Shown in pieces: positions 50,472 to 64,000 of a DNA stretch of 64,000 nucleotides. How positions within the stretch are numbered: position 1 is the first letter of the stretch; each line of letters starts with the position of its first letter. Under the pieces are notes generated by a model. That model did not search any database and was not told the origin of the DNA. It worked only from the letters and a program-made list of their open reading frames with translations. Source of the stretch: Ruegeria lacuscaerulensis (GTDB taxonomy: Bacteria; Pseudomonadota; Alphaproteobacteria; Rhodobacterales; Rhodobacteraceae); NCBI RefSeq assembly GCF_013034685.1, contig NZ_WQGO01000003.1, positions 310,001-374,000 of the forward strand, read 5' to 3'. Both the position numbers and the translations under genes were made by a program.

Positions 50472-51221
50472 ATGGATCGACCACTCCAGTACGAGCAGGC
50501 CTACCCGGCGTCCAAAGTTTTTCCGGACCTTGAGCCTGCCAATGACGCTGCGGCTGCGCCCAAGCCTGCGCCGCGGCGACGGTTGTTTTCGCTCAAGCGA
50601 AGCCAGCCGTCCCGTCAGGAAAAGCTGGGTGAGATTCGTGCGACGACGATGAGTTTTCGCAACATGCATGAATATGGCACGCTGCTGTCCAAGTATCTGG
50701 AAACCCGCAAGTCGATTTTCATCGACCGCCTGAATTGGCAGATCGGGCAGGTAGATGGCATGGAGTTCGATCAATACGACACACCCGCCTGTCGCTGGGT
50801 CGTTCTGCATGAATTCGGCGAGGTTCTGGGCGGCGTGCGCCTTTTGCCGACAACCGCGCGCTGCGGGATTTACTCCTATATGTTGCGGGATGCGCAGCAG
50901 GGGAATTTGCCGGGTATGCCAACGGATGTCCTTTTTTTCGAGGCTCCAGTTGCCCCCAATGTCTGGGAGGCATCGCGGTTTTTCATCACCGACAGCGTGC
51001 CGTCCTCACGTCGTATGGCCGTGCAACAAGAGTTGTTCTATCAAATGACTGTGACAGCCGCCGAGGGTGGAGCGACGCGCATTCTTGGAATTGTACCGTC
51101 AGTCTGGGCGCGCTGGTCGCGGCGGCTTGGGGTAGGGGCCGCGCCGGTTGGGGCGAAGTTCTCGATCGAAGGGACCTATAGCCAGTCGGTCTTGTTCAAT
51201 ATCAATCGGCAATCGCCATAG
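50472..51221 (+). CDS. Acyl-homoserine-lactone synthase, LuxI family
   Basis: A 249-residue AHL synthase. The catalytic set is complete: R79 and F83 with W89 (ETRKSIFIDRLNWQ), D100 and D103 (EFDQYD), R123 (GGVRLLPTT), E166 and R169 (VWEASRF). It makes N-acyl-homoserine lactone from SAM and an acyl carrier. The core starts at about residue 60 (MSFRNMHEYG). The first 59 residues are a Pro/Ala/Arg-rich extension (PAPRRRLFSLKRSQ). ATG 50472 is kept because GC-rich coding composition begins exactly there; an alternative start is ATG 50649. No LuxR gene is adjacent. Confidence 0.9.
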   Translation: MDRPLQYEQAYPASKVFPDLEPANDAAAAPKPAPRRRLFSLKRSQPSRQEKLGEIRATTMSFRNMHEYGTLLSKYLETRKSIFIDRLNWQIGQVDGMEFDQYDTPACRWVVLHEFGEVLGGVRLLPTTARCGIYSYMLRDAQQGNLPGMPTDVLFFEAPVAPNVWEASRFFITDSVPSSRRMAVQQELFYQMTVTAAEGGATRILGIVPSVWARWSRRLGVGAAPVGAKFSIEGTYSQSVLFNINRQSP

Positions 51222-51340
51222 AGCGCGGTTAAGGTGCTGGAAAGCATGTTAAACACGGGGTTGGCCTGCGTGTTCCTTGTCTCTTGATGCGAGGCCCGTG
51301 GCCGGTTTTGACAAAATAAGGCCCAGAAATGAACACGTTT

Positions 51341-51368
51341 CGCGGCGTTTTTTACCGTTTTCGCCGCG
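51341..51368. repeat. Inverted repeat CGCGGCG / CGCCGCG
   Basis: A perfect 7-bp inverted repeat (51341-51347 with 51362-51368) separated by a 14-base loop, in the leader between the AHL synthase and the second regulator. It could be a terminator-like hairpin (a GTTTTG run follows) or an operator. Confidence 0.5.
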
Positions 51369-51397
51369 GTTTTGTCCTAGTCGTTCAATAGGTTGGG

Positions 51398-51421
51398 ACC
51401 GTTAAACAAGTTGAAAACGGT
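51398..51421. repeat. Inverted repeat ACCGTT / AACGGT near regulator start
   Basis: ACCGTT (51398-51403) and AACGGT (51416-51421) form a perfect 6-bp palindrome with a 12-base spacer, ending 9 bases before the ATG at 51431. This position fits a protein-binding site or a structured leader. It is also where the ribosome site would be expected; none of good quality is seen. Confidence 0.4.
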
Positions 51422-51430
51422 TTACCAGTC

Positions 51431-52564
51431 ATGAAACACTCCAACCCGGACAGTGAACAGTTCCAGCGGAAACTGGAAATCCGCGCGTTGCAAAAGACCA
51501 AGCTGCGCGTCTTGGTGGTTGATGATGAACCCAGCATTCTGGAGCTGTTGCAGGCCGCGCTGGCCGAGTTTGAGAATTGTGATATTTCAGCTGCATCCTC
51601 GGCCACTGAAGCCCTGGCGCTGATCGAAGCCACCGGAACGCCGTTTGACTGTTTCCTGCTGGATATTCAAATGCCCGGTATTAACGGAATCGAATTGCTG
51701 CGGCGTATTCGACAAATGCCCGAACATGCCGAGGCGCCGGCGATCATGCTGACCGCGATGAGCGATAGAAAACATGTGGAAGAAGCGTTTCTGGAAGGCG
51801 CGTTCGACTATGTTACCAAACCGTTTGATTTCTTCGAGCTGCGCAGCCGGATGAACGCGGCGCATCTCTTGATGCAAGAACGTATCAAGGCGCGCCGCAG
51901 CTCGGCCTCGGTGCAGAGCCTTCGGGCTGAACTTGACAGTACACAGCAGTTCAGCTTTGATGATCCATTGTCAATCGACGGGCTCGAACGGTGCCTGCGA
52001 TATGTTGAGTTCGACAATTACATCGAACAACTTTCGCGGGGATGTCTGTACGATTCATGGGTCGTTGCCGTCAAACTTCAGGACGCTGACTTCCGGTTCG
52101 ATCTTAACGATTTCAGTGCGTTCCGCCGGGCGATTTCCGATTTGGGACGCTCCATCGAAAAGACGACCAAGCTATCGCAAGCAGTGTTCTCGTACCGGGG
52201 CAGCGGCGTGTTTCTCGTCGTCGTGCATGGCCGCGAGGCCGCATCCGACCTGCCTGCCGAAGAAGAATTGAACCAGCTTTTTGGCGCGATGCTGGCGGAC
52301 CGAGGTGTCTCGGGGTCGGTTCGGGCTGTCAAAGGAGCCGCTATTGCCATGCGGTCTATTTCCAAGTCAGGGGCATTCTCAGCAATGAATAACGCGATCG
52401 GAAAGGTGCAGGAACGGGAAGTGGCCCTTCGCAAGGTCGAAGCGCCCGAGGCAGAACTGCCCAGCAAATCTAACGTGGTGAAGATGGACAAGCCACGTAC
52501 CAGCCTGTTCGAGACCGTTTTGCAGGAGATGTACGGCAGCCAGACCTATCTGGCCCGCAAGTAA
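51431..52564 (+). CDS. Response regulator, paralogue with dead GGDEF-like output
   Basis: A 377-residue protein. A short N-terminal extension (1-24) precedes a receiver: VLVVDDEPSILELL, D78 (CFLLDIQMPGINGIELL) and K130 (TKPFDF), all intact. The output part begins with DDPLSIDGLERCLRYVEFDNYIEQL, where DxLTxLxNR would be, and has G-S-G-V-F (257-261) for GGDEF. Catalytic residues are lost. About 70 further residues follow, ending in a basic, Lys/Glu-rich tail. The layout is shared with the regulator at 48971; the two flank the AHL synthase. Confidence 0.8.
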   Translation: MKHSNPDSEQFQRKLEIRALQKTKLRVLVVDDEPSILELLQAALAEFENCDISAASSATEALALIEATGTPFDCFLLDIQMPGINGIELLRRIRQMPEHAEAPAIMLTAMSDRKHVEEAFLEGAFDYVTKPFDFFELRSRMNAAHLLMQERIKARRSSASVQSLRAELDSTQQFSFDDPLSIDGLERCLRYVEFDNYIEQLSRGCLYDSWVVAVKLQDADFRFDLNDFSAFRRAISDLGRSIEKTTKLSQAVFSYRGSGVFLVVVHGREAASDLPAEEELNQLFGAMLADRGVSGSVRAVKGAAIAMRSISKSGAFSAMNNAIGKVQEREVALRKVEAPEAELPSKSNVVKMDKPRTSLFETVLQEMYGSQTYLARK

Positions 52565-52587
52565 GGCTTGGGCCTCAGGCGCGGGCC
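52552..52587. terminator. Nested hairpin at the convergent regulator/P450 junction
   Basis: GGCCCGC (52552-52558) pairs with GCGGGCC (52581-52587). Inside it AGGC-TTGG-GCCT forms a second small stem. It spans the last codons of the regulator and the 10-base gap to the convergent P450. No T-run follows on either strand, so termination is only suggested by position. Confidence 0.4.
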
Positions 52588-53942
52588 GCGTTCAACATCA
52601 TGGGACCGCTGGTGCGCATGGTGAACGTCAGGACCGGCTCGGGCATCGGAGCCGATGACATCGAGAAATGAATGTCTCGCAGAACCGACGCCATCAGAAC
52701 CATAATCTCGGTCTCGGCATATTGCGCGCCAATACAGATGCGAGGGCCATCACCGAAGGGGATATATTGCCCACGCGGAGGCGGAGCACCCAAAAAGCGT
52801 TGGGGTCTGTACTGATCAGGCTCTTCCCACAGCTTTTCATTGCGGTGAAGTGAATAGACCGGAAAAAACAACGCGTCACCTGGTTCGATCTTGATCCCTT
52901 TGATCTCCACTGTTTCCTCAGCATCCCGCGCAAAAAACGCAGCCGAAGGATACAGGCGCAACGTCTCTTTGATATGCGCGCGCAACAGCGGCATGTGTTC
53001 GAGATGCGAGAATTCGATTTTGTCTTCAGGGCAGGCTGTTCGAATCTCATCCCGGATTCTGTGCTGCATCTCGGGGTAGAGCGCCAGCAGGTAGTATCCC
53101 CAAGCCATCGCATTGGCCGAAGTCTCATGCCCCGCGACAACAAAGGTCAGCAGGTTGTCGACCGTGGTTTCCAGATCTTCGAAGTCTTCCTTAAGCGCGT
53201 CGATCATCAGGTCTAGGAAATCTTGCGGCTCCTCTCGGCCTTCGGCGCGGCGCTGCTCGATCACAGTGCGTGCCAAATCGCGCATCGTAGTGACGGGGGC
53301 GGTGCTGCGCAGCCATTTGCGGCGGGGCAGCCATTTGGGCAGGCCCATCAGGTCGAACAGAGAGATGTCGGAAATATAGTTAAAATAGGCGATCAAACCC
53401 ACGCGGATTTGTTCGGAGCTGACCTCTTCATTGCCGGAAAAGATCACACGAGAGATATTCGTCAGCGTCGAAGCCGGTGCGACCTGCGCTATGTCCACAG
53501 GACCTTCGTTCTCAGCTAACGACGCGGCGATCTCGGAGCCAGTTTCGGCAAAGTGGCGCGACAAGACAGGCAAGTTCCGGGCCGCGAAAAGCGGCGAGTA
53601 GCGCTGTCGTTGTTTGCGCCATTTCTCACCTTCGGACAGGATCAGACCATTGCCAACGGCGGAGCCGATGATGTCTTTTGTGAACTTGGCCTTTGGAAAA
53701 CGGCGGCCTTTGCCAACAAGCAATTCGGTCACCATTTCGGGGTCGCATATATAATGGATGTTCAACGGACCACGCACATAGGTCTGCTGAATCGTCTCAA
53801 TCGGGATAACCTCAAGCATGTTGCGCCCGGCTGATCGGGCGAATTGCAACAACGATACGGGCTTTTCTGCCAGTCGGGCCGAAACCGGTGTCACGTCGGC
53901 CTGCCTCATTTCCTGCATACCAATTGCGGTCATGCTGCTCAT
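52575..53942 (-). CDS. Cytochrome P450
   Basis: A 455-residue heme monooxygenase. Signs in order: WRKQRQRYSPLFAARNLP (C-helix), VAGHETSANAMAWGYYLLALYPEMQHRIRDEI (I-helix acid-Thr equivalent HETS), KETLRLYPSAAFFARDAEE (ExxR), QYRPQRFLG and the heme-ligand loop FGDGPRICIGAQYAETE with Cys403. It is a class I-type soluble enzyme without an N-terminal anchor. No ferredoxin or reductase is adjacent, so redox partners are encoded elsewhere. It is convergent with the regulator at 51431 and divergent from the kinase. Substrate unknown; a fatty acyl chain is one possibility. Confidence 0.9.
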   Translation of the reverse strand: MSSMTAIGMQEMRQADVTPVSARLAEKPVSLLQFARSAGRNMLEVIPIETIQQTYVRGPLNIHYICDPEMVTELLVGKGRRFPKAKFTKDIIGSAVGNGLILSEGEKWRKQRQRYSPLFAARNLPVLSRHFAETGSEIAASLAENEGPVDIAQVAPASTLTNISRVIFSGNEEVSSEQIRVGLIAYFNYISDISLFDLMGLPKWLPRRKWLRSTAPVTTMRDLARTVIEQRRAEGREEPQDFLDLMIDALKEDFEDLETTVDNLLTFVVAGHETSANAMAWGYYLLALYPEMQHRIRDEIRTACPEDKIEFSHLEHMPLLRAHIKETLRLYPSAAFFARDAEETVEIKGIKIEPGDALFFPVYSLHRNEKLWEEPDQYRPQRFLGAPPPRGQYIPFGDGPRICIGAQYAETEIMVLMASVLRDIHFSMSSAPMPEPVLTFTMRTSGPMMLNAARA

Positions 53943-54204
53943 CCTTCAGGTTCATTGGCCCCTGGGCAGAAACATTTAGTGTCAAAACACGCAAAGAATC
54001 AATGAAATCGTTAACTTACCGCCATGTGTTTCCGGACTGTGTCATATTAGACTCCGTCACTGATGCTGATATGAGAACAGTGACTATTAACAATACACAT
54101 CGCGTTTTGAGATTATTGCCAAACTGTGAACCAATTTCGGACCAACTGCGTCCTCATTGTGCCTGTAGTTCAAGGAGAACAGTGCCACAATTGAAGACGA
54201 CGTG

Positions 54205-55632
54205 ATGACGATCACAGAAACGACACCGCCGATCGAGCTCTCGGAAGAGCCTGTCGATCAGCTGCTACAGAACATCAAGGACTACACCGCCATGAGCTTT
54301 GCGCTGCTTTGGCAGCGGCAAGCGATTTTTCTGGCGACGACCATTCTGACGGGCTTCTTCTTCGACTCGCTCAACGCGATCCTGTTCTATGGCACGATCC
54401 TGATATGCGAAGCGCAAGACCTGTATCTTGCTAAACGTGTGGCGCGCCTGCGGCGCGATGAACGGCGCGCGATTGCGATGATGGTCGCGTGGATATTGCT
54501 GAACACGATCCTAAGCGCCGCTGCCATCTGCCTCTATGCGGTGTCAGTTGCGTTCAAACAGCCGTCGGGGGGGCACTTCACCCCCTTGTTCTTCCTGTTT
54601 GCGGCCGCGCTTTTTGCGGCGATGAACAACCATCAGTTCGTCTGGGCCATGATCGTGCGGCTGGCCATGTATGGCGTGTCGTTCATGGTGATCGTCGTTA
54701 CCGATATCTGGATTGAACAACCTGACCTGTCGTCGGAACTTTGGCTGCATTTCTTCACGGTCGTCTTCGTGATGTACTTTTTGATCGACTGTTCGTTGGT
54801 CTTTCTTAAGCTTTATCGAAAAAATCTAGAGCAGCTTGAAAAACTAAGGGAAGAGCACGAACGTACCAAGGCGGCCTATATCGCCAAGACACAGTTCATT
54901 TCTACGGTTAGTCACGAATTGCGCACGCCGCTGACCTCTATCAAGGGATCGCTGGACCTGATCAACACAGGCGCGATGGGCGAGGTGCCTGAAAAGATGC
55001 AAAAACTTGTTGATCTGGCTGCGCGCAACAGTGAGCGGCTGGCGTCGCTGATCAATGACGTACTCGATATTCAGAAGATGGAAGCGGGTGAGATGGTCTT
55101 TCGGCAAACTGCGATTGATGTTCGTCCTCTTGTGCAAGAAGCCATTGCGGCCAATCTGGGTTATGCCAGTGCCCATAACGTAGTGATTGAAGAGAATGTC
55201 GACGGCCAAGCCGATCTGCAAATACGCGGGGATACATCGCGCCTGATTCAGGTGCTGACCAATATGATTTCGAATGCTGCCAAGTTCTCTTTCGATGGTG
55301 GCTCGATCACCGTCGGCTACAAGCAGGTCGGCGGCCGCGTGCGGATTTTTGTAAAGGATCAGGGGATCGGTATCCCCGCGGGAAGCCGAGACAAAGTTTT
55401 CGACCGCTTTTCGCAGATTGATTCATCTGATGAACGCCATGCCGGAGGTACAGGTCTTGGAATGAACATTTCCAAGGAAATCGTGGAACAGTTTGGTGGC
55501 ACGATCGACTACTACAGCACACTAGGCGTCGGAACCGAATTTTTCGTAGAGTTTCCCATCCTGGAACCGCGTAACAGGCCTGCAAAAGGACATGGACTTA
55601 CTGATCTGCCGAAAATCATACGATCCAACTAG
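54205..55632 (+). CDS. Membrane histidine kinase
   Basis: A 475-residue sensor kinase. Five or six TM helices span about 30-190 (IFLATTILTGFFFDSLNAILFYGTIL to FFTVVFVMYFLIDCSLVFLKLY) with only short loops, so the sensory part is likely in the membrane. A coiled coil (LEQLEKLREEHERTKAAYIA) leads to the H-box FISTVSHELRTPLTSIKGSL with H237, and a HATPase domain with NMISNAAKFSFDGGSI, DQGIGIPAG and GGTGLGMNISK. There is no receiver or PAS domain. Start ATG 54205 is used (GTG at 54202 is possible). The nearby orphan receivers at 48971 and 51431 are natural targets. Confidence 0.87.
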   Translation: MTITETTPPIELSEEPVDQLLQNIKDYTAMSFALLWQRQAIFLATTILTGFFFDSLNAILFYGTILICEAQDLYLAKRVARLRRDERRAIAMMVAWILLNTILSAAAICLYAVSVAFKQPSGGHFTPLFFLFAAALFAAMNNHQFVWAMIVRLAMYGVSFMVIVVTDIWIEQPDLSSELWLHFFTVVFVMYFLIDCSLVFLKLYRKNLEQLEKLREEHERTKAAYIAKTQFISTVSHELRTPLTSIKGSLDLINTGAMGEVPEKMQKLVDLAARNSERLASLINDVLDIQKMEAGEMVFRQTAIDVRPLVQEAIAANLGYASAHNVVIEENVDGQADLQIRGDTSRLIQVLTNMISNAAKFSFDGGSITVGYKQVGGRVRIFVKDQGIGIPAGSRDKVFDRFSQIDSSDERHAGGTGLGMNISKEIVEQFGGTIDYYSTLGVGTEFFVEFPILEPRNRPAKGHGLTDLPKIIRSN

Positions 55633-55668: not shown

Positions 55669-58170
55669 TCACCAGTCGAAACGCTCATAGACTTGTGTAT
55701 CTAGTGCCGAAACTTGCGGGCTGTCAGGTAGTGTCACTGTCTCGGACAGGACATCTGCTTCTTGGGCTATATCCTGAGCCTCCGGTGCCATGTCCCAAGG
55801 TTGAGAGGCCATATCAGTTTCCGTCGCGTCGGCGAGTACAGATGCATCCATTCTTTCGGACTCCGCGCCCGCTGGTTCTGATCCTCCGACAGTGAGTTGA
55901 ACCGGGATTTCTATTCTGTCCACTAAGTCGGGATCGTTGCGATCAGAGATTGCGAGTTCGAGGTTGATACTACCTTCGAATCCAGCGGGCGGGGAAATTT
56001 CCAAACTCGAAAGGTCCCAGCCATCCAAATTGACCACTTCTCCATCCGATAACAATGAGGCTTCGCCACTAACGAAGAGAGTGTTTTCGGGTGCGCCGTC
56101 CAACAAAATCGTCGCGCGCTCACTGGCTTCCGCTATGTCGATTTTTAGAGCTATAGTTCCACCTTCTTCGGCTGAGAGAATTCCGCTGACCTGAATTTCG
56201 GGCGCGTTTGAACTTTCTCCTTCCGGCCGGTTGTCTGGACCTGTTTCCAAAGCGGTGGTCGGCGCGCTTTCATCGAAAGAGCGTTGGACTTCCTGATCAC
56301 GGTTTTTGGCTTTTGAGTAGCTTTGACTTGCGGAATTGTTTTTTGACGCCAGACCGCTGGCGATTGCAGTCTCGGGCATGTCGGCAACAGTGATCGAGAT
56401 TGTCTCGGTTCGGCTTAAACCACCTGCGTCGATCACTGATACATCGATGTCAATCGAGGCTGCTACTTCATAGTCCAAGGCGACACCGGGCTTCAGTCGC
56501 AACTGGTTGCCGACCACTTCGAACCGATCATCCGAAACTTCGAACCGGTGTATGTCATTTGCATCGGGATCAGCGAAACTCAGATACCCAACGATGGCGC
56601 CTTCGGTATTTTCTGCGACCGAAAGCTGAGCCTCTGTCAAGGCGATGTTGTCGACCAGGGCGCCGTAGCTGTCATTTTGACTTTCTGGTTCACGGAGTTC
56701 CAGCGTGTCCTGGCCAGAGCCGACCACCTGAAGCTGGAACGTTTCCCAATCGGACGATTGTGGATCCAGTTCGCCGACCAACTGTCCGTTCCAATATACT
56801 TCGACCGTGTCGGTGCCACCGGATAGGCGCTCTCGCAGGTCAATGCCCAAATCGTAAAGCTGCCCGTCTTCAGTCTCAATCGTCTGGGAAATACTGTCGA
56901 CGCCCCTTGCGTGGTCCAACTCCAACAATTGGTCCCCATGTGAAGCCTTGGTCCCCCATAGATTATCCCAGATTTCAAGGCCATGAGCATCGGTCCATCC
57001 GCCAGAATCGTCGTTGTCGAAGCCGCGCCATCTGCCACGGTCGAGGTCGAATTCTTCAAAGCTTCCGTTTGCGACCAGATTGTCTGTTGCATTGCCAATG
57101 GACAAGTCGACCGGGGCTTCGTTGATGTCTTGGATATCCACTACGAAGGTTTCAGAAACACTCAGCCCGCCGGCGTCGATAGCTGTCACCTCAAGCTCGA
57201 TCTGTTGGGTGGTCTCATAGTCAATGTCCGCCTCAGGCTTGAGGCGTAACTTTCCATCAACAACTTCGAAACGGTCGTCCGAGACTTCGAAGCTGTGGCT
57301 GTCGCTCTTGTCTGGATCAATCACCGAAATCTCTCCAACCACGGCACCGGCTGCATTTTCTGCCACAGTTGAATTGCTGAGCGAAACGCTCTCGGGCCCT
57401 TCGTTCACATCCAGCACCTCGATGGTGAAAGTTTGCGTCAAGCTGAACCCGTGCGCGTTTGTGGCCGTCACGTCCACTTCGATCTGGGCTGCATCTTCAT
57501 GGTCCAGCGATACTTCGGGTTTTATTCGCAGCTCTCCATCAATGATTTCAAACCGATCATCCGAGACGGTAAATTCATGCGCGTCGCTGCTATTTGGATC
57601 AATGACGGTGAGGGTGCCAATCGCTGCACCAGACGCATTCTCTGCGACGGTCGCGTTGTCCAGATTTAGCGCGTCAGGCGCAAGGTCAACCTCCTGTTCT
57701 GGAGGAGGCATTGCGCTGGGACCAATGGAAACCGGGGCAGCGATTCTTGGCGGAACATCCGGAATTTCTGTAACCGTCGGAGAGCCCTCCGTGTTTGAGA
57801 TGTTGAGCTTCGAAAAAGGCTCATTGGCGGATCCTGAAAAAGAAGAGGGTGCTTCAGGTGCATCTGGAGCAGCCCGCGTTTGCACAGTTTTCTGGCCATC
57901 AATGACGGCCTGTGCTTGAGGAAGCGAGCGTTCGGCGCTGATGAAGTCGTCGCGCGCAGAAGGCATGTCTGCTTTCTCAGGTGCACCGTTTTGATGCAGC
58001 CTGTCGTCTATCGTTCCTTCGACCCGTTCCCCCGTGTGCAAAGTGCTGCGGGTCGGATCCTCTTGGATCGAAACGCCGCGCGCAACGTGAGAGTCGATCT
58101 CGGCTTTGTCGTTCAGTTCGGTTTGTGCGGAATTGATCTGATGCTCAAGATATTGCCCGGCTTTTTGCAT
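55669..58170 (-). CDS. Cadherin-repeat surface protein, probable type I secretion substrate
   Basis: An 833-residue acidic protein without signal peptide. Residues 1-160 are low-complexity. Cadherin-like repeats follow at about 168-258, 262-353 and 514-597, each with TVAENASGAAIGTLTVIDP-like openings, VSDDRFEIIDGELRIKPE and calcium-type DINEAP/DVNEGP joints. A jelly-roll module (about 362-513: NLVANGSFEEF, SISQTIETEDGQLYDLGIDLRERL) is inserted inside the third repeat. Residues 655-760 form another beta domain. The tail (766-833) is very acidic and ends YERFDW. No RTX nonapeptide is present. It is divergent from the exporter-like genes, which share its 168-bp upstream region; that context suggests type I export. 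Confidence 0.8.
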   Translation of the reverse strand: MQKAGQYLEHQINSAQTELNDKAEIDSHVARGVSIQEDPTRSTLHTGERVEGTIDDRLHQNGAPEKADMPSARDDFISAERSLPQAQAVIDGQKTVQTRAAPDAPEAPSSFSGSANEPFSKLNISNTEGSPTVTEIPDVPPRIAAPVSIGPSAMPPPEQEVDLAPDALNLDNATVAENASGAAIGTLTVIDPNSSDAHEFTVSDDRFEIIDGELRIKPEVSLDHEDAAQIEVDVTATNAHGFSLTQTFTIEVLDVNEGPESVSLSNSTVAENAAGAVVGEISVIDPDKSDSHSFEVSDDRFEVVDGKLRLKPEADIDYETTQQIELEVTAIDAGGLSVSETFVVDIQDINEAPVDLSIGNATDNLVANGSFEEFDLDRGRWRGFDNDDSGGWTDAHGLEIWDNLWGTKASHGDQLLELDHARGVDSISQTIETEDGQLYDLGIDLRERLSGGTDTVEVYWNGQLVGELDPQSSDWETFQLQVVGSGQDTLELREPESQNDSYGALVDNIALTEAQLSVAENTEGAIVGYLSFADPDANDIHRFEVSDDRFEVVGNQLRLKPGVALDYEVAASIDIDVSVIDAGGLSRTETISITVADMPETAIASGLASKNNSASQSYSKAKNRDQEVQRSFDESAPTTALETGPDNRPEGESSNAPEIQVSGILSAEEGGTIALKIDIAEASERATILLDGAPENTLFVSGEASLLSDGEVVNLDGWDLSSLEISPPAGFEGSINLELAISDRNDPDLVDRIEIPVQLTVGGSEPAGAESERMDASVLADATETDMASQPWDMAPEAQDIAQEADVLSETVTLPDSPQVSALDTQVYERFDW

Positions 58171-58338
58171 TGATCTGATCCCCGTTTGTTCCTCTGATTC
58201 CGGCCCATCAGTAACATAGGTTGTTGCTGCGATTGCGACTTAAGTATCTAAAAATTAAACGAAATAATCCACAGTTCTCGATCGGAGTTTACGCTTCTTC
58301 AATAGGTTCAGGCCAAACCGATTGGACGAGGCAACTGG

Positions 58339-60057
58339 GTGAGCAATAGGATGGGATCGAGCGAATTTATCGGACGAAAACTGATGCCACGGTTGGGTGT
58401 TCCGGTTTGGGTGGCTTCCCTGTCTTTGAACGTATTGTCACTTTTGATGCCGATCTCAATCCTGTTGATTTTCGACCGGATCATTCCATTCCAATCCATG
58501 GAAACTCTGCACGTTCTGACCTGCGTTCTACTGTTCAGTGCGGGGTTTGAACTTGTTTTGCGACATTGCCGATCCATTCTATTGTCGACCGCCGCAGAGG
58601 ATGCAGCGCGCGCCAACTACAGCCTTTTTATGAGACAGGTTCTGACGGCAAATACCCTGACCTTCGCCAAAGAGCCACCCAGCAGTTATGCCGAGCGCTA
58701 CGCTGCGATTGCGCAACTTCGGGATCATTATGCGGGGCAAGGGCAAACGCTTTCGATTGATCTGCCGTTTACGCTCATGTTTGCAATCTTGATCGGATTG
58801 ATTGGCGGCTGGCTCGTTCTGGTTCCATTGGGTGCTTTTGGCATCGTCCTGATTTTTGCGGCCGTAATGAAACGTGCTCAATGGAACTTGTTCCGACAGC
58901 GTAAGACACTGGACACCCGCAGATACGCCTTTTTGTCCGAGCTTTTGTCGAACATGAAGACAATCAAGGCTAACCGGATGGAGTCGCAAATGTCGCGGCG
59001 ATTTGAGATGCTTGAGGATCAGACAGTCGACATCAGCGGCCGAATGATACGTTTCGCCGGCTTCGCACAGAGTTTTGGCACCGTTTTTGCTCAGGTATCG
59101 GTGGCCGCAATGGGCTTGTTGGGCGCTTATCTGGCGATCCGAAATCAGATTGGTATCGCGGAAATGGCGGCCTGTATGCTTCTGAATGGGCGGATCGTGC
59201 AGCCGCTGACCAAATTGATGGCAATGTGGGTCCAGGCTGAAAATATCACTGTCGCCTGGTCCAGATTGAAAGAGATGAATGAGCTTGAAGCGCATCTGGT
59301 CGCGACGTCTGGCGACGGGAAGCTATCGGGTGTTGTTACGGCCTCGGACGTCTCGGTCAGGCGTTTGCATGGAAACGGCGCGTCATTTTCAACGGTCAGT
59401 TTTACAGCCAGCGCCGATAGAGGCGTTTTGATCGAAGCCGAGGAAAGCTGGATGGTCGACGCCCTTTTTGATGCGCTAACGGGACAGTGCGACCTGGATC
59501 AGGGAAGCATTCTTTTCGACAGAGTGGATGCCAAGAAAAGAGTTGCCTTTCGCGGCGAAAACGCGTTGGTCGCGCTGGAGAGAGAACCGGTTATCCTTTC
59601 AGGTACCTTGCTGGAAAACCTAAGTGCGTTTGGTGATCACGAGCGGATCGAAAGCGCCAAGACGGTTGCCGCTGCATTGGGGTTGGAACGCCGGATTTTT
59701 CGCCTACCGCTTGGGTACAACACCCCAATGACAATTGGGTCGGCGTTCGAACGCGACCCGGTGAACCGGCAATTGATCGCATTGGTGCGCGCACTGGCTC
59801 TACAGCCTCACATCCTGCTAATGAACGAGCCGACCGCTGTGCTTGATACGGCTGAGCGACAGGCGCTGGCAGATTATCTGGCTAAGTTAGAAGTGCGACC
59901 GACGCTTATCGTGGCATCGCCCGACCCGCGTTTTAAGCAATTTGCGCCACAGGTCGTCAGGCTAAATGCAACCAAGTCACGCGACATGGCAGCGTGGGTC
60001 GCGGATACGGATCTTGAAAGGCTGACATCAGAGGCCATGCAAAAGGGGGCCGCATGA
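58339..60057 (+). CDS. ABC-exporter-like protein with degenerate nucleotide-binding domain (1)
   Basis: A 572-residue protein. The N-terminal part is an ABC-exporter-type six-TM domain (about 15-300: VWVASLSLNVLSLLMPISILLIFDRIIP and FTLMFAILIGLIGGWLVLVPLGAF). The NBD region is full length but lacks the motifs: Walker A is E366-A-E-E-S-W-M-V (no Gly, no Lys), LSGGQ reads RDPVN (472-476), Walker B reads LLMNEP with Asn496 in place of Asp, and the H-loop His is Pro528. Start GTG 58339 lacks a clear ribosome site; ATG 58351 is the alternative. It overlaps the second exporter-like gene by four bases. Confidence 0.85.
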   Translation: MSNRMGSSEFIGRKLMPRLGVPVWVASLSLNVLSLLMPISILLIFDRIIPFQSMETLHVLTCVLLFSAGFELVLRHCRSILLSTAAEDAARANYSLFMRQVLTANTLTFAKEPPSSYAERYAAIAQLRDHYAGQGQTLSIDLPFTLMFAILIGLIGGWLVLVPLGAFGIVLIFAAVMKRAQWNLFRQRKTLDTRRYAFLSELLSNMKTIKANRMESQMSRRFEMLEDQTVDISGRMIRFAGFAQSFGTVFAQVSVAAMGLLGAYLAIRNQIGIAEMAACMLLNGRIVQPLTKLMAMWVQAENITVAWSRLKEMNELEAHLVATSGDGKLSGVVTASDVSVRRLHGNGASFSTVSFTASADRGVLIEAEESWMVDALFDALTGQCDLDQGSILFDRVDAKKRVAFRGENALVALEREPVILSGTLLENLSAFGDHERIESAKTVAAALGLERRIFRLPLGYNTPMTIGSAFERDPVNRQLIALVRALALQPHILLMNEPTAVLDTAERQALADYLAKLEVRPTLIVASPDPRFKQFAPQVVRLNATKSRDMAAWVADTDLERLTSEAMQKGAA

Positions 60058-62129
60058 CGACGCTTGAAGTAGAAAAAGCAACCGGCCTGCTGGACGCTCT
60101 GCTTTACAACCAAGGGCGCCGAAGCAGCCTAAACACGTTGCTGGAAGCACTCCCACATCAATCAGAAAGGCTAGATCAGGATGACATTCTGGATGTGCTC
60201 GACACGCTGAAAATTTCTTATACCAAAACTCGATGCCGGGAAGACACCATTGTGGGCGCGGATTGCCCGGCTTTGGTTATTCCCGAAACCGGGCCGTGGT
60301 ACGTCGCCTTGGGGCGTAACGGCTTGTCTTTGCGGGTGGCTGGCGCGAAAGACCACTCACCAAAACGTCGTAAGTGTTTGGTCATCCGAATTGAATCGAA
60401 GGCTTGGCGCGAAGAGGATGGTACGCCGCAAACTGTTCGTATGGCATTCCGAGTCTTTAGGCCGATGTTGCCTTGGCTTTTTCTTGCGTCATTCCTCATC
60501 AATCTATTGGGCTTGGCTGCGCCACTTTTGATCATGGCGATTTATGACAAGGTTATCCCATCGGGTTCGGTGGCAATGCTTACGTCATTGGTTGTTGCGG
60601 TCTTGGTTATCGGCCTCTCGGATATGTGTTTCCGACACGCGCGAACACGGGCATTGGCGTATATCGGCGCGCGCGGCGAACACCAACTCATGATTGCGTT
60701 GTTTCACAAACTGATGTCGCTGCCCCTGCAGCAGTTGCAGAAGTCGGATATCAGCCAACAGCTCTCTCGTTTCAGGCAATTCGAAGCCCTGCGAGACGTG
60801 TTCACAGGCCAGATCATGACCAGCTTGCTCGATTTGCCTTTCGTTTTAATTTTCTTTGCCGTCCTGACTTTTCTTGCCCCTCAGGTCGGATTGTTGACGC
60901 TTGGGCTTGTTGTTATTTTGGTGATACTCGGTTTCGTCACCATCCCCGAACAGCGGCGACTGGACAGTGCAGCCTCAGATGCGGCTGCAAAAAGTCAATC
61001 TGCAATGCAGCAGGCGATATTGCACCAGCGCATGATGAGCGACTTGGGACTGCAACAGAGATGGCTGGATCGCAGCTTGTCTTTGTCCGAAGCGGCAGAG
61101 GATGCAACGCGGCGTGCACGTGTGTTTCAGGCATTCACGCAGTCCTTGTCCCAATCGGTGACAGCGTTGGCCACGGTGGGGGCCATTATTCTCAGCGCTT
61201 ATGCAGCGGTGAATGGCGATCTCAGTTTTGGCGCTTTAATCGCCGTGATTGCTCTGGTGTCAAAAATTCTTGCCCCGGTACAGACATTGTATTGTTGCTG
61301 GGCTCAAATCCTGATTTTCAGTCACAGCCGCAATCAGGCTGATCGGGTGCTTTCATTGCCAGAAGAGCTTGAACTGGGGTTGGAGCATTCTCATTGCAAA
61401 GACATTCAGGGCGCGATCCAGTTTTCTGCCGTCACTTTTCGCCCAGATCCGCTGAATGCACCGCTTCTGTCGCAGGCGAGTTTGAGCTGTGATCCCGGTG
61501 AAGTCACCTTAATCATGAGCAGTGATGCAGCCGTGCGAACGGCGGTCTTAGACCTGATGGACGGGTTGGCTACGCCTTTGGCGGGCACTGTATCTTATGA
61601 TGACGTTGACTTGCGGCAAATCGCCAGGGACGAACTGCGCACTTCGGTTACTTACGCGACCTTTGAAAAAAAGCTGTTCTACGGCACGATCGCACAGAAT
61701 TTTCGATTGGCGTCTGTGTCACTGAGTGATTGCCAAATCGAAACGGCCTTGTCGCAGATGGGATTGTCGCAGGACCAGGAGTTGTTGCCAGATGGTCTTG
61801 AAACTCGTCTGACCGATGCTCACCTGGCGCAGTTGCCAGATGAAACCCTCAAGGCTCTGACCCTTTCGCGTAGCATGGCGCGCCCTTCATCGGTTTATCT
61901 GTTTTCGGAACCGACCAATGGTTTGTCAGATCAGCGCCGTGCTGCCTTCAAGGAGTGGGTGCGACAGCAAAAGAGGCGGAGTACCGTTGTGATCGCAACT
62001 GCGGACCGGTCCTTCCTTTCGATCGCAGATCGCTTTGTGTTTCTAAACGGAGAGCGCGTGGTTTTGAATGACACCGGAGAGGTCGGGCGCAGAAAGTTGA
62101 AGGCCATTTTACAGGCAATGGAAAAATAA
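60054..62129 (+). CDS. ABC-exporter-like protein with degenerate nucleotide-binding domain (2)
   Basis: A 691-residue protein. Residues 1-130 look like a C39-like (CLD) domain without a catalytic Cys (LLEALPHQSERLDQDDILDVLDTLKISY, then ADCPALVIPETGPWYVALG). A six-TM exporter domain follows (about 145-430) with PLLIMAIYDKVIPSGSVAML. The NBD region keeps its length, but Walker A is SSDAAVRT (489-496, Arg for Lys), the signature is LPDET (594-598), Walker B is YLFSEP with Ser618 for Asp, and the H-loop His is Ala650. It is paired with the first exporter-like gene, probably as a heterodimer. Confidence 0.85.
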   Translation: MTTLEVEKATGLLDALLYNQGRRSSLNTLLEALPHQSERLDQDDILDVLDTLKISYTKTRCREDTIVGADCPALVIPETGPWYVALGRNGLSLRVAGAKDHSPKRRKCLVIRIESKAWREEDGTPQTVRMAFRVFRPMLPWLFLASFLINLLGLAAPLLIMAIYDKVIPSGSVAMLTSLVVAVLVIGLSDMCFRHARTRALAYIGARGEHQLMIALFHKLMSLPLQQLQKSDISQQLSRFRQFEALRDVFTGQIMTSLLDLPFVLIFFAVLTFLAPQVGLLTLGLVVILVILGFVTIPEQRRLDSAASDAAAKSQSAMQQAILHQRMMSDLGLQQRWLDRSLSLSEAAEDATRRARVFQAFTQSLSQSVTALATVGAIILSAYAAVNGDLSFGALIAVIALVSKILAPVQTLYCCWAQILIFSHSRNQADRVLSLPEELELGLEHSHCKDIQGAIQFSAVTFRPDPLNAPLLSQASLSCDPGEVTLIMSSDAAVRTAVLDLMDGLATPLAGTVSYDDVDLRQIARDELRTSVTYATFEKKLFYGTIAQNFRLASVSLSDCQIETALSQMGLSQDQELLPDGLETRLTDAHLAQLPDETLKALTLSRSMARPSSVYLFSEPTNGLSDQRRAAFKEWVRQQKRRSTVVIATADRSFLSIADRFVFLNGERVVLNDTGEVGRRKLKAILQAMEK

Positions 62130-62130
62130 A

Positions 62131-63459
62131 ATGAGAGAGCAGACACAACAAAATTCGACCTCCGGTCCCACGGCAGGTTTAATAAATCGTCGTCGGATGC
62201 GACCTCCAAGGGTGGCCGCGTTTTTGGCGCTGACGATCTCGGGCTTTTTGGGCGTGATACTAGTTCTGGCGGGGCAAACCAACGTTCCTCAAATCACGCG
62301 GGCCCCGGGGACAATCTTGCCATTCGGGGACTATGCTCAGATCGAAACTCTGCACGGAGGCGTGGTCCGGGCCGTTCACGTGCGCAATGGCCAAACGGTC
62401 GAGGCGGGCCAACTTTTGGTGGAATTGGACCATCCAGACCTTTCGCGTGAGCAGGACATTATGACGGGTCAGCTTTCAGCAATTATTCGTCAGACCGAAA
62501 ATGCCAAAACCGTTTTGTCCATGCTAGACAGCGAGACTTTGCCAAGTGACCGCGCGCTTGATGAGATAAGGAGTAGAGGCCTGACCAATGCCGCGGCTAG
62601 GCTGGATCTGTATTCCGAAAGCCAGACGATCCAGCAGGTATCGATCCAGCAGCAAGAGGGGACGCTGCGAATTTTGCAAGATGCAGCCGAACTGTCAGCA
62701 GCACGGGTCGAAAGAAAACAAGATCTTCTGGCAAGATATGCACAGCTTAGGGCACGCGGATTGAAAACCCTGAGCGACTATCTTGAAGAGGAAGATGAGG
62801 TTGAAGCGGTTCGAATTGCGGCATCGGACGCGCGGGTTCGGTTGGCCCAGGCGGAAAATGCGTTGAATTTGGCCCGCGCGTCTATGGCAGAGGAAACTCT
62901 GGCTCTGCGCGAAGAGGTATTGACGAAACTTTCTGATCTGGATCAGGAAAGGGCAGAGCTTATTGCCGCTCTCAGGATAGTGGGAGCGCAGATCGCGAGC
63001 CTGGCCATCGTGGCTCCGGCCCGCGGAGTCGTTCAAGCTGCTGCCTATCCCAATCCGGGAGAGGTCATTGCGCCGGGTGAGGTGCTGTTCGAATTGTCGC
63101 CAACACATGACGCGCTATTGGTTGAGGCACGCATTCCAAACGCGGATATCGGTCATGTGGATACCAGTCAGCCAGTGTCCGTCAGCGTTGACACATTCGA
63201 TGTGCGCAGGTTCGGAAAGATCCAAGGGCGATTGCAAACTGTCTACCCCATGCCGCTTACCGATGAGAGGACCGGCGAGACCTATTTTCGCGCATCCTTT
63301 GTTTTGGCTGAAGGCAATGTGGGACGTGGACCTTATGAAAGGCCACTTCAGGCCGGGATGACGGTTGTGGCCGAGATGACGACAGGGGAGCAAACGCTGT
63401 TGTCCTATATGTTGAAACCTGTCCAGACGACTTTGGGCCGTGCTTTCAACGAAAGATAG
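62131..63459 (+). CDS. HlyD-family membrane-fusion (adaptor) protein
   Basis: A 442-residue adaptor with one N-terminal TM helix (VAAFLALTISGFLGVILVLAG). A lipoyl-like half follows (ETLHGGVVRAVHVRNGQTVEAGQLLVELDHPD), then a long helical coiled coil (about 100-270) and the second lipoyl half with VAPARGVVQAAAYPNPGEVIAPGEVLFEL. The periplasmic end is beta-rich (VSVSVDTFDVRRFGKIQG). It starts 1 base after the second exporter-like gene and is the canonical third gene of a type I secretion unit. A TolC-like protein is not in the window. Confidence 0.92.
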   Translation: MREQTQQNSTSGPTAGLINRRRMRPPRVAAFLALTISGFLGVILVLAGQTNVPQITRAPGTILPFGDYAQIETLHGGVVRAVHVRNGQTVEAGQLLVELDHPDLSREQDIMTGQLSAIIRQTENAKTVLSMLDSETLPSDRALDEIRSRGLTNAAARLDLYSESQTIQQVSIQQQEGTLRILQDAAELSAARVERKQDLLARYAQLRARGLKTLSDYLEEEDEVEAVRIAASDARVRLAQAENALNLARASMAEETLALREEVLTKLSDLDQERAELIAALRIVGAQIASLAIVAPARGVVQAAAYPNPGEVIAPGEVLFELSPTHDALLVEARIPNADIGHVDTSQPVSVSVDTFDVRRFGKIQGRLQTVYPMPLTDERTGETYFRASFVLAEGNVGRGPYERPLQAGMTVVAEMTTGEQTLLSYMLKPVQTTLGRAFNER

Positions 63460-63514: not shown

Positions 63515-64000
63515 TTAGTTTTCGTTCGACAAAACCGCGCCACCCGTTTTGTTGCGGGATGCGGCACGCAGACGGTCCTTGAAAGTCTGGGTCGCGCTGT
63601 CTGCAACGTCAGCCTGCGTGACAATGGCATCAGATAGAAGAAACGTGGCACGCATTGCGACAGGTCCATCCACGACAATAAATTGAGTGTTGCTCGGGGA
63701 AATCGTCAGCCGGCCAGTGACCTCTACACTTTGGTGAATGTATTCGGGCATCCAATCCGTCTCCAGTTCGACGCGGATCATCTGGTTCGGAGGCGGCGGC
63801 GGTATATGGCTGCACATGCCTGGCCTCGGTACAAGGTATATGATTGAAGCACCGTTAGGAGCTTGAGGAGCCGGGATAGCATAGCCTTGAATTGTGGCGG
63901 CTTTACCCTCAAGATCGGGATTGCCTTGGGAACCGGCTTTCGCGCGCTGCGCGATCACATTGTCGCGCTGACTCAACAATCGGTCGATGTCGATCTTTTC
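63515..64000 (-). CDS. DUF3299-family protein, N-terminus outside the window
   Basis: The frame is open from the stop at 63515 to the window edge (EKIDIDRLLSQRDNVIAQR at the edge), so about 161 codons are visible and the start, probably with a signal peptide, lies beyond. The motifs IQGYAIPAP, IIYLVPRPGMCSHIPPPPPNQMIRVEL and SVEVTGRLTISPSNTQF match DUF3299, a family of secreted proteins often found with efflux or type I secretion-related genes. Its tail (SATQTFKDRLRAASRNKTGGAVLSNEN) is basic. It is convergent with the HlyD gene. Confidence 0.8.
   Translation of the reverse strand, partial: EKIDIDRLLSQRDNVIAQRAKAGSQGNPDLEGKAATIQGYAIPAPQAPNGASIIYLVPRPGMCSHIPPPPPNQMIRVELETDWMPEYIHQSVEVTGRLTISPSNTQFIVVDGPVAMRATFLLSDAIVTQADVADSATQTFKDRLRAASRNKTGGAVLSNEN

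Follow-up and report, generated by a model that had tools for sequence, protein, structure and literature searches.

In a 64,000-nucleotide stretch of Ruegeria lacuscaerulensis DNA (assembly GCF_013034685.1, contig NZ_WQGO01000003.1, positions 310,001 to 374,000; here called the window), two tandem genes encode proteins, P1 and P2, that are, judged by their sequences, type I secretion ATP-binding cassette (ABC) exporters in which both nucleotide-binding domains (NBDs) lack the catalytic ATPase motifs. In general, ATP is understood to drive ABC exporters. The tandem is followed by a gene for an HlyD-family adaptor, and a divergent gene codes for an acidic cadherin-like protein, CAD, which is the probable dedicated substrate.

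The first-pass annotation of this DNA had stated that all hallmarks of the ATPase are gone from both halves. The residues that it named are correct for P1 (Walker A EAEESWMV, signature RDPVN, N496 at Walker B and P528 at the H-loop) and for P2 (SSDAAVRT, LPDET, S618 and A650). The Walker A Lys, the Walker B Asp, the signature and the H-loop His are indeed lost; the catalytic Glu, which is kept in both halves, has to be taken out of that statement. A joint alignment was made of 87 rows of the P1 family (the window and P0001-P0086) and 74 rows of the P2 family (P0121-P0194), which are the better part of the matches found, with 120 of the 259 P1 matches and all 117 P2 matches listed. Walker A Lys, Walker B Asp and H-loop His are jointly absent from 83 of the 86 complete P1 rows and from 69 of the 72 complete P2 rows. 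Exceptions are P0048, P0059 and P0073 in the P1 family and P0151, P0188 and P0189 in the P2 family, and none of these six has Lys, Asp, Glu and His together. Among the residues tallied the P1 family has no Lys at the Walker A position, and the P2 family has Arg there in 72/74 rows. Many P2 relatives still show a P-loop-like GSDxAGRT; the P-loop glycines are lost in the window copy. The Walker B Asp is present in only 3/87 P1 and 2/74 P2 rows, and the signature SGG in no row of either family. The catalytic Glu is retained in 85/87 P1 rows (E497), and the corresponding P2 position (E619) is Glu in 65, Asp in seven and a gap in two of the 74 rows. Canonical rows in the same alignment have Lys, Asp, Glu and His in 14/16 and SGG in 12/16 cases. 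The same losses are found in homologue sets with 44-64% identity to P1 and 46-63% to P2. Since they recur in nearly all close homologues examined, the losses are not due to chance.

Both reading frames are full length (572 and 691 amino acids) and free of stops and frameshifts, as had been claimed. Intact transmembrane domains (TMDs) were likewise found in the profile search, where the Pfam model ABC_membrane (cut-off 28) scores 68.4 bits in P1 and 92.0 bits in P2. Against Pfam ABC_tran (cut-off 25) the P1 NBD is sub-threshold with 18.9 bits and the P2 NBD marginal with 31.5 bits. Scoring 150 of 202 candidates in the whole genome gave 132 ABC_tran stretches at E <= 1e-3, a list in which the P2 NBD ranks within the bottom eight and from which the P1 NBD is missing. 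Scores for the curated exporter models TIGR03375, TIGR01842 and TIGR01846 (cut-offs 693, 510 and 726) are far below cut-off, with 228, 159 and 127 bits for P1 and 308, 203 and 193 bits for P2. Each protein consists of an exporter TMD fused to an NBD of ABC fold, a cognate HlyD adaptor is encoded alongside, and the best structural match is HlyB; both NBDs are predicted to keep their fold. No paralogous tandem was found in the same genome, where no further P1 match appeared at E <= 1e-40 among the 22 of 104 candidates scored. In locus L142 (genome G429, Rhodobacteraceae) a P1-like and a P2-like half form a single 1311-aa frame, and this natural fusion supports the pairing of P1 with P2.

Comparison of the loci gave two clades in which both halves are dead. 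Clade A comprises 22 loci including the window, from Ruegeria, Phaeobacter, Pseudophaeobacter, Tritonibacter, Shimia, Pelagimonas, Litoreibacter roseus and others, and in none of them (0/22) does one half have all four catalytic residues (Lys, Asp, Glu and His). The same is true for the 12 loci of clade B (Roseobacter, Roseovarius and others; 0/12), which makes 0/34 for the two clades combined. The clade B P2 keeps the Walker A Lys (12/12), has Asn in place of the Walker B Asp (12/12) and is devoid of the His and of LSGGQ; in the clade B P1 the motifs are lost in part or wholly. Of 13 other Rhodobacteraceae loci, three (L141, L142 and L169) keep all four residues in P2, with a P1 that is degraded in L142 and L169 and lies off the contig in L141. 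L167 has no such half, and the other nine show partial losses (0/9 with all four residues in one half). L141, L142, L167 and L169 were found when, as a control, the intact-type model A3 was run against 394 Rhodobacteraceae genomes and two candidates were scored per genome. The statement that no Rhodobacteraceae outside the dead clades keep all four residues was overturned by L141, L142 and L169. With these three loci the series from both halves intact to one and to none is better filled, and both dead clades are unaffected.

In other alphaproteobacterial families, 20/20 loci (L112-L131, referred to as competent) have all four residues in at least one half; they were picked from matches to a model built from P2 proteins most of which are intact, and thus prove existence, not frequency. 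Their signatures are mostly L[PSA]xGxxQ-like in both halves and never LSGGQ. This group is widespread and has large neighbours, often tagged with xHxG, which are 554-3732 aa long where both ends are seen or nearly so. In the deposited sequence two of its genes, CAD in L116 and P1 in L128, are each split into two frames.

In trees of 55 pairs clade A is one group with support of 100 for P1 and 99 for P2. The two trees agree with each other (correlation 0.968, 0/999 permutations, 36/52 splits shared). Because they are quick trees with long branches, no order of the partial losses is claimed. The later motif table and the trees omit L025 and L051 (no pair) and L049 (P2 cut by the contig end); the trees also omit L050 (P2 cut), L128, and the unresolved pairs of L112, L119, L122, L124, L130, L135, L141, L142, L144, L146 and L147. 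L132-L136 were dropped as duplicates of named loci. Genome G231 (L138, L134) has two tandem modules, one of clade A and a second one that is differently degenerate.

The first-pass annotation regarded the loss as selected rather than as decay. The sharing by homologues, the low ratios of nonsynonymous to synonymous substitutions (dN/dS), the retained structural residues and the fixation of new residues all agree with this, and no frameshift was found in the 22 clade A pairs. dN/dS was calculated for 15 pairs, of which four are usable (dS < 1.3 in every region); the others are partly saturated and some of their regions gave no ratio. In the four pairs dN/dS is 0.10-0.14 for the P1 NBD and 0.07-0.09 for the P2 NBD, which indicates purifying selection. 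The values for the TMDs are 0.08-0.10 (P1) and 0.04-0.08 (P2), those for the P2 N-terminal domain 0.17-0.22 and those for HlyD 0.09-0.11. With the TMD as reference, NBD evolution is faster in the two dead clades than in competent loci; thus the constraint on the NBDs has changed and not vanished.

In clade A 25 residues of P1 and 18 of P2 are fixed that are rare in competent loci, and many structural Gly, Thr, Asn and Phe positions of the NBDs are retained. The clearest sign comes from a charge pair: canonical and competent NBDs have an Asp or Glu after the D-loop and an Arg after the H-loop His. In clade A this charge pair is reversed to Arg...Asp, in the same alignment columns of both paralogues and in 22/22 loci each. 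All proteins that have both letters (86/86 for P1, 72/72 for P2) have the reversed pair, and the old order is found in 19/20 (P1) and 20/20 (P2) competent loci. The pair is mixed in clade B, where Lys or Arg occurs with Asp in 10/12 P2 and 2/12 P1 proteins. In addition, a change of the P1 signature Ser to Asp is paired with the change of the P2 Walker A Lys to Arg in 21/22 clade A loci; the exception has changed both. In ordinary ABC dimers these two positions face each other across ATP. Since all loci share ancestry, the charge pairs are not independent events. The reversal in two paralogous NBDs would be a clean natural example of an ABC engine turned into a structural part.

The gene neighbourhood is conserved together with the tandem. 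In 38 named loci and the window (39 loci; predicted frames of at least 80 aa, overlapping ones dropped, clustered) a CAD-type gene is present in 36 and HlyD in 35, in the order CAD <-|-> P1 P2 HlyD, so that the suspected linkage was found, to the same type of cadherin gene. No neighbouring helper ATPase is conserved: besides CAD, P1/P2 and HlyD no family occurs in more than 6/39 loci, an absence that is only as good as the data, because many loci end at contig ends. P1 is carried by 7/37 genomes of the same genus, the window genome included, and is also found on Phaeobacter plasmids (11 of 19 plasmid records matched). The annotation of plasmid pP36_f (L149, Phaeobacter piscinae) contains all four genes. 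This plasmid is mobilizable, and its gene at the CAD position is 7.8 kb long and annotated as a PA14 domain-containing protein. In this genome the canonical LssB system is encoded at L147. PADLOC mad3 matches were taken as generic ABC similarity.

CAD has a Pfam Cadherin score of 57.1 bits, a pI of 4.05 and 20% Asp plus Glu; with the MARTX toxin model NF012221 it reaches 23.5 bits, well short of the cut-off of 700. Both of its ends carry short conserved motifs. The motif YERxDW before a stop occurs once in this genome, in CAD, and all 24 complete CAD proteins of clades A and B (13 and 11) end with ER-x-[DE]-W; misfits to the C-terminal tag are L048 (HDRHDW), L050, L137 and L138. A looser DNA pattern for this end was found in 8/12 carriers, 2/10 non-carrier Ruegeria and 0/8 competent genomes, and the control matches 5/30 genomes. 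In the stretches read from genomes G012 and G185 (excluding the G185 C10 and the G003 matches) none of the extra matches ends a frame of at least 150 aa. At the N-terminus LH[TY]G is present in 20/21 clade A loci that hold the gene start and in 12/12 clade B loci; in L027 the first pattern match lies elsewhere, yet the stretch EDQSRSTL is visible. The expression for this motif matched 73/596 background frames, a background that still includes CAD frames of unnamed loci. In the competent group an N-terminal xHxG (NPNIHTG, NANLHTG or similar) was read in frames of 12/20 loci, and the eight CADs with a reachable C-terminus end with ERIEW (three) or similar (EAIQW, EKIEG, EKIEW, ERIEY, ERFQW). Because the ends of the substrate were kept while the engine was lost, the complex may well still handle CAD, and this is the best evidence for it, although indirect. 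Passages of two Roseobacter exoproteome papers (PMC3933643, PMC5489592) identify no CAD protein.

Table 1. Coordinates in the window of the CAD, P1, P2 and HlyD genes and of their sequence features.
Feature	Position	Strand	Remarks
CAD	55669..58170	-	833 aa, acidic, cadherin-like, pI 4.05; probable dedicated substrate; divergent from P1
CAD C-terminal tag YERFDW-COOH	55672..55689	-	
CAD N-terminal tag TRSTLHTGE (LHxG motif)	58027..58053	-	conserved
CAD/P1 intergenic region	58171..58338	.	divergent, 168 bases; sequence read
P1	58339..60057	+	572 aa; TMD and dead NBD, without N-terminal C39-like domain
P1 degenerate NBD	59314..59973	+	residues ~326-545
P1 former Walker A EAEESWMV	59434..59457	+	V373 at Lys position
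P1 former signature RDPVN	59752..59766	+	D473 at Ser position
P1 former Walker B Asp, now N496	59824..59829	+	E497 at kept catalytic-Glu position
P1 R507	59857..59859	+	one member of reversed charge pair
P1 former H-loop P528 D529	59920..59925	+	D529 partner in reversed charge pair
P2	60054..62129	+	691 aa; N-terminal C39-like domain, TMD, dead NBD
P2 N-terminal C39-peptidase-like (CLD-type) domain	60054..60428	+	residues ~1-125; TIGR03375 span 18-673; HlyB alignment from residue 7
P2 degenerate NBD	61395..62063	+	residues ~448-670
P2 former Walker A SSDAAVRT	61518..61541	+	R495 at Lys position
P2 former signature LPDET	61833..61847	+	
P2 former Walker B Asp, now S618	61905..61910	+	E619 at kept catalytic-Glu position
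P2 R629	61938..61940	+	one member of reversed charge pair
P2 former H-loop A650 D651	62001..62006	+	D651 partner in reversed charge pair
HlyD-family type I secretion periplasmic adaptor	62131..63459	+	442 aa; TIGR01843 229.3 bits, cut-off 208.65

Further fixed residues lie outside the NBDs. In the P2 N-terminal domain C61 and C71 are fixed in 22/22 clade A loci, and C71 is also present in 12/12 clade B loci. P1 E301 (59239-59241) and P2 K404 (61263-61265) are each fixed in 34/34 loci of clades A and B, with Gln and Arg, respectively, in 20/20 competent loci. Both lie in or near the last transmembrane helix and are a possible lead to a role of the membrane potential. Upstream of CAD (50472-55632) the window contains autoinducer-synthase-like, response-regulator, P450 and histidine-kinase genes, and L018 has genes in the same order with lengths matching these. 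On the other side (63515-64000) a DUF3299 protein is encoded convergently to the module; it is not conserved beside the module.

The explanation that we favour, at somewhat less than even confidence, is a conserved dedicated type I secretion system with an ATPase-dead P1/P2 heterodimer, in which the NBDs have been kept as structural parts. P1 and P2 would pair, and P1, P2 and HlyD together with a TolC-type outer channel encoded elsewhere would carry CAD, with its C-terminus leading, to the surface or the medium. The NBD pair would act as a fixed structural clamp and gate, in which the former ATP site between P2 Walker A and P1 signature may be bridged by charged residues of the proteins themselves (R495 of P2 and D473 of P1). 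Each NBD might also be stabilised by its own reversed Arg/Asp pair. As the first-pass annotation suggested, such a unit might depend on a different source of energy or on a separate ATPase. The drive, the least certain step, could be the Ca2+-dependent folding of the acidic cadherin domains outside and/or the membrane potential instead of ATP at the NBDs. For RTX proteins Ca2+-driven folding outside is described as a ratchet in passages of two papers (PMC6891781, PMC8486122); CAD is likewise acidic and has cadherin domains, and for CAD the ratchet is a proposal. That secretion is ATP-independent altogether, with fixed charges in place of the nucleotide sandwich and with Ca2+ folding and membrane potential pulling CAD out in seawater, we put forward tentatively, as a possible version.

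Homologues with intact Walker A and B, which would according to the first-pass annotation point to a strain-specific lesion, were found only as more distant relatives. Because these are outgroups and not sister strains, a strain-specific lesion was rejected; the loss is common to close homologues across many genera.

P1 and P2 might instead recognise the substrate without being catalytic, as subunits of a mixed assembly whose ATP is hydrolysed by a canonical PrtD- or LssB-type ABC protein from another locus; we regard this as unlikely but as the alternative to be taken most seriously. A mixed ring is imaginable because in HlyB/HlyD three HlyB dimers sit together with six HlyD, as stated for the hemolysin system in a passage of PMC11026475, and six HlyB chains are present in each of 7sgr and 8dck. 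A PrtD-type ABC (TIGR01842 over cut-off) was found in 12/12 carriers tested, a co-occurrence that is uninformative, because PrtD-type genes were searched in carriers only. The LssB type (TIGR03375), however, does not track the module: it is over cut-off in 30/42 genomes, and at 1e-150 no match was obtained in the carriers G061 and G231. Moreover, the module has kept its own HlyD gene, and its recurrent neighbours include no additional ABC gene.

Less probable is that P1, P2 and HlyD no longer form an exporter and serve as a membrane tether, receptor or gate for CAD in retention or signalling, with CAD taking another route. A complex in the membrane whose cytoplasmic NBD pair is structural could anchor a protein, and the missing motor fits this. 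However, the terminal tags of CAD resemble those of many ATP-competent systems, the CAD N-termini read by eye show no obvious signal peptide, and export genes other than those of the module are not among its recurrent neighbours.

A residual nucleotide cycle, in which P2 binds ATP via a P-loop with Arg for Lys and hydrolysis, slow or unconventional, is aided by E497/E619, seems quite improbable. It could draw on the catalytic residue (Glu in 85/87 P1, Glu or Asp in 72/74 P2 rows), on the many GSDxAGRT sequences among the P2 proteins with Arg, and on the Walker A Lys of the clade B P2, but neither family has an SGG signature or the H-loop His, the Walker B Asp is nearly gone, the window P2 is devoid of P-loop glycines and P1 of a P-loop. 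Decay into a non-functional operon, for which the faster evolution of the NBDs relative to the TMD could speak, is very improbable and was rejected on account of the intact frames in 22 clade A pairs, dN/dS of 0.07-0.14, the fixed new residues, the reversed charge pair and the presence in many genera.

The dedicated ATPase-dead exporter would be a selected lineage that has no active site, has kept the substrate tags and has intact relatives. With it one can test directly which part ATP plays in type I secretion, and whether folding driven by calcium is enough. Should the ATP be supplied in trans, the module would be part of a mixed-engine secretion machine.

Literature searches listed no paper about this ATPase-dead exporter system, judged by title and start of the abstract. 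With HlyB, LssB, PrtD and their HlyD partners the module shares fold, domain order, the CLD-type N-terminal domain of P2 and the adjacent HlyD gene, HlyB being closest in fold; unlike them, both NBDs have lost Walker A Lys, Walker B Asp, LSGGQ and H-loop His. Degenerate nucleotide sites are also known from the exporters TmrAB, TM287/288, ABCC1 and ABCC7/CFTR, but these have a canonical site, whereas P1/P2 keep none. Where one site of an exporter is degenerate, the cycle is energised by the active site, and the degenerate site has a structural and mechanical role, according to passages of PMC7756269. By motif P1/P2 have no hydrolysis-competent composite site and thus differ from such heterodimers, and the catalytic Glu is all that is left of the motif set that type I ABC exporters have in at least one half. 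Because the pair departs from both groups in this respect, it is classed, from its genes, as a type I secretion variant by layout and a putative one by mechanism. L112-L131 likewise have P1 and P2 in tandem, mostly with an adjacent HlyD and with an extension of CLD size in P2 only, and differ in the catalytic residues kept in at least one half (20/20). Closest in architecture is the MARTX system, for which a passage of PMC3034196 describes RtxB, RtxE and RtxD, divergent from the substrate operon, with TolC encoded elsewhere. P1/P2/HlyD share this layout of two ABC proteins and an HlyD-type adaptor divergent from a substrate gene, CAD being the presumed substrate. In MARTX, RtxB is the ATP-binding transporter and RtxE a second ATPase, and both appear to be necessary for secretion (same passage); in contrast, neither P1 nor P2 can, by motif, be a standard ATPase.

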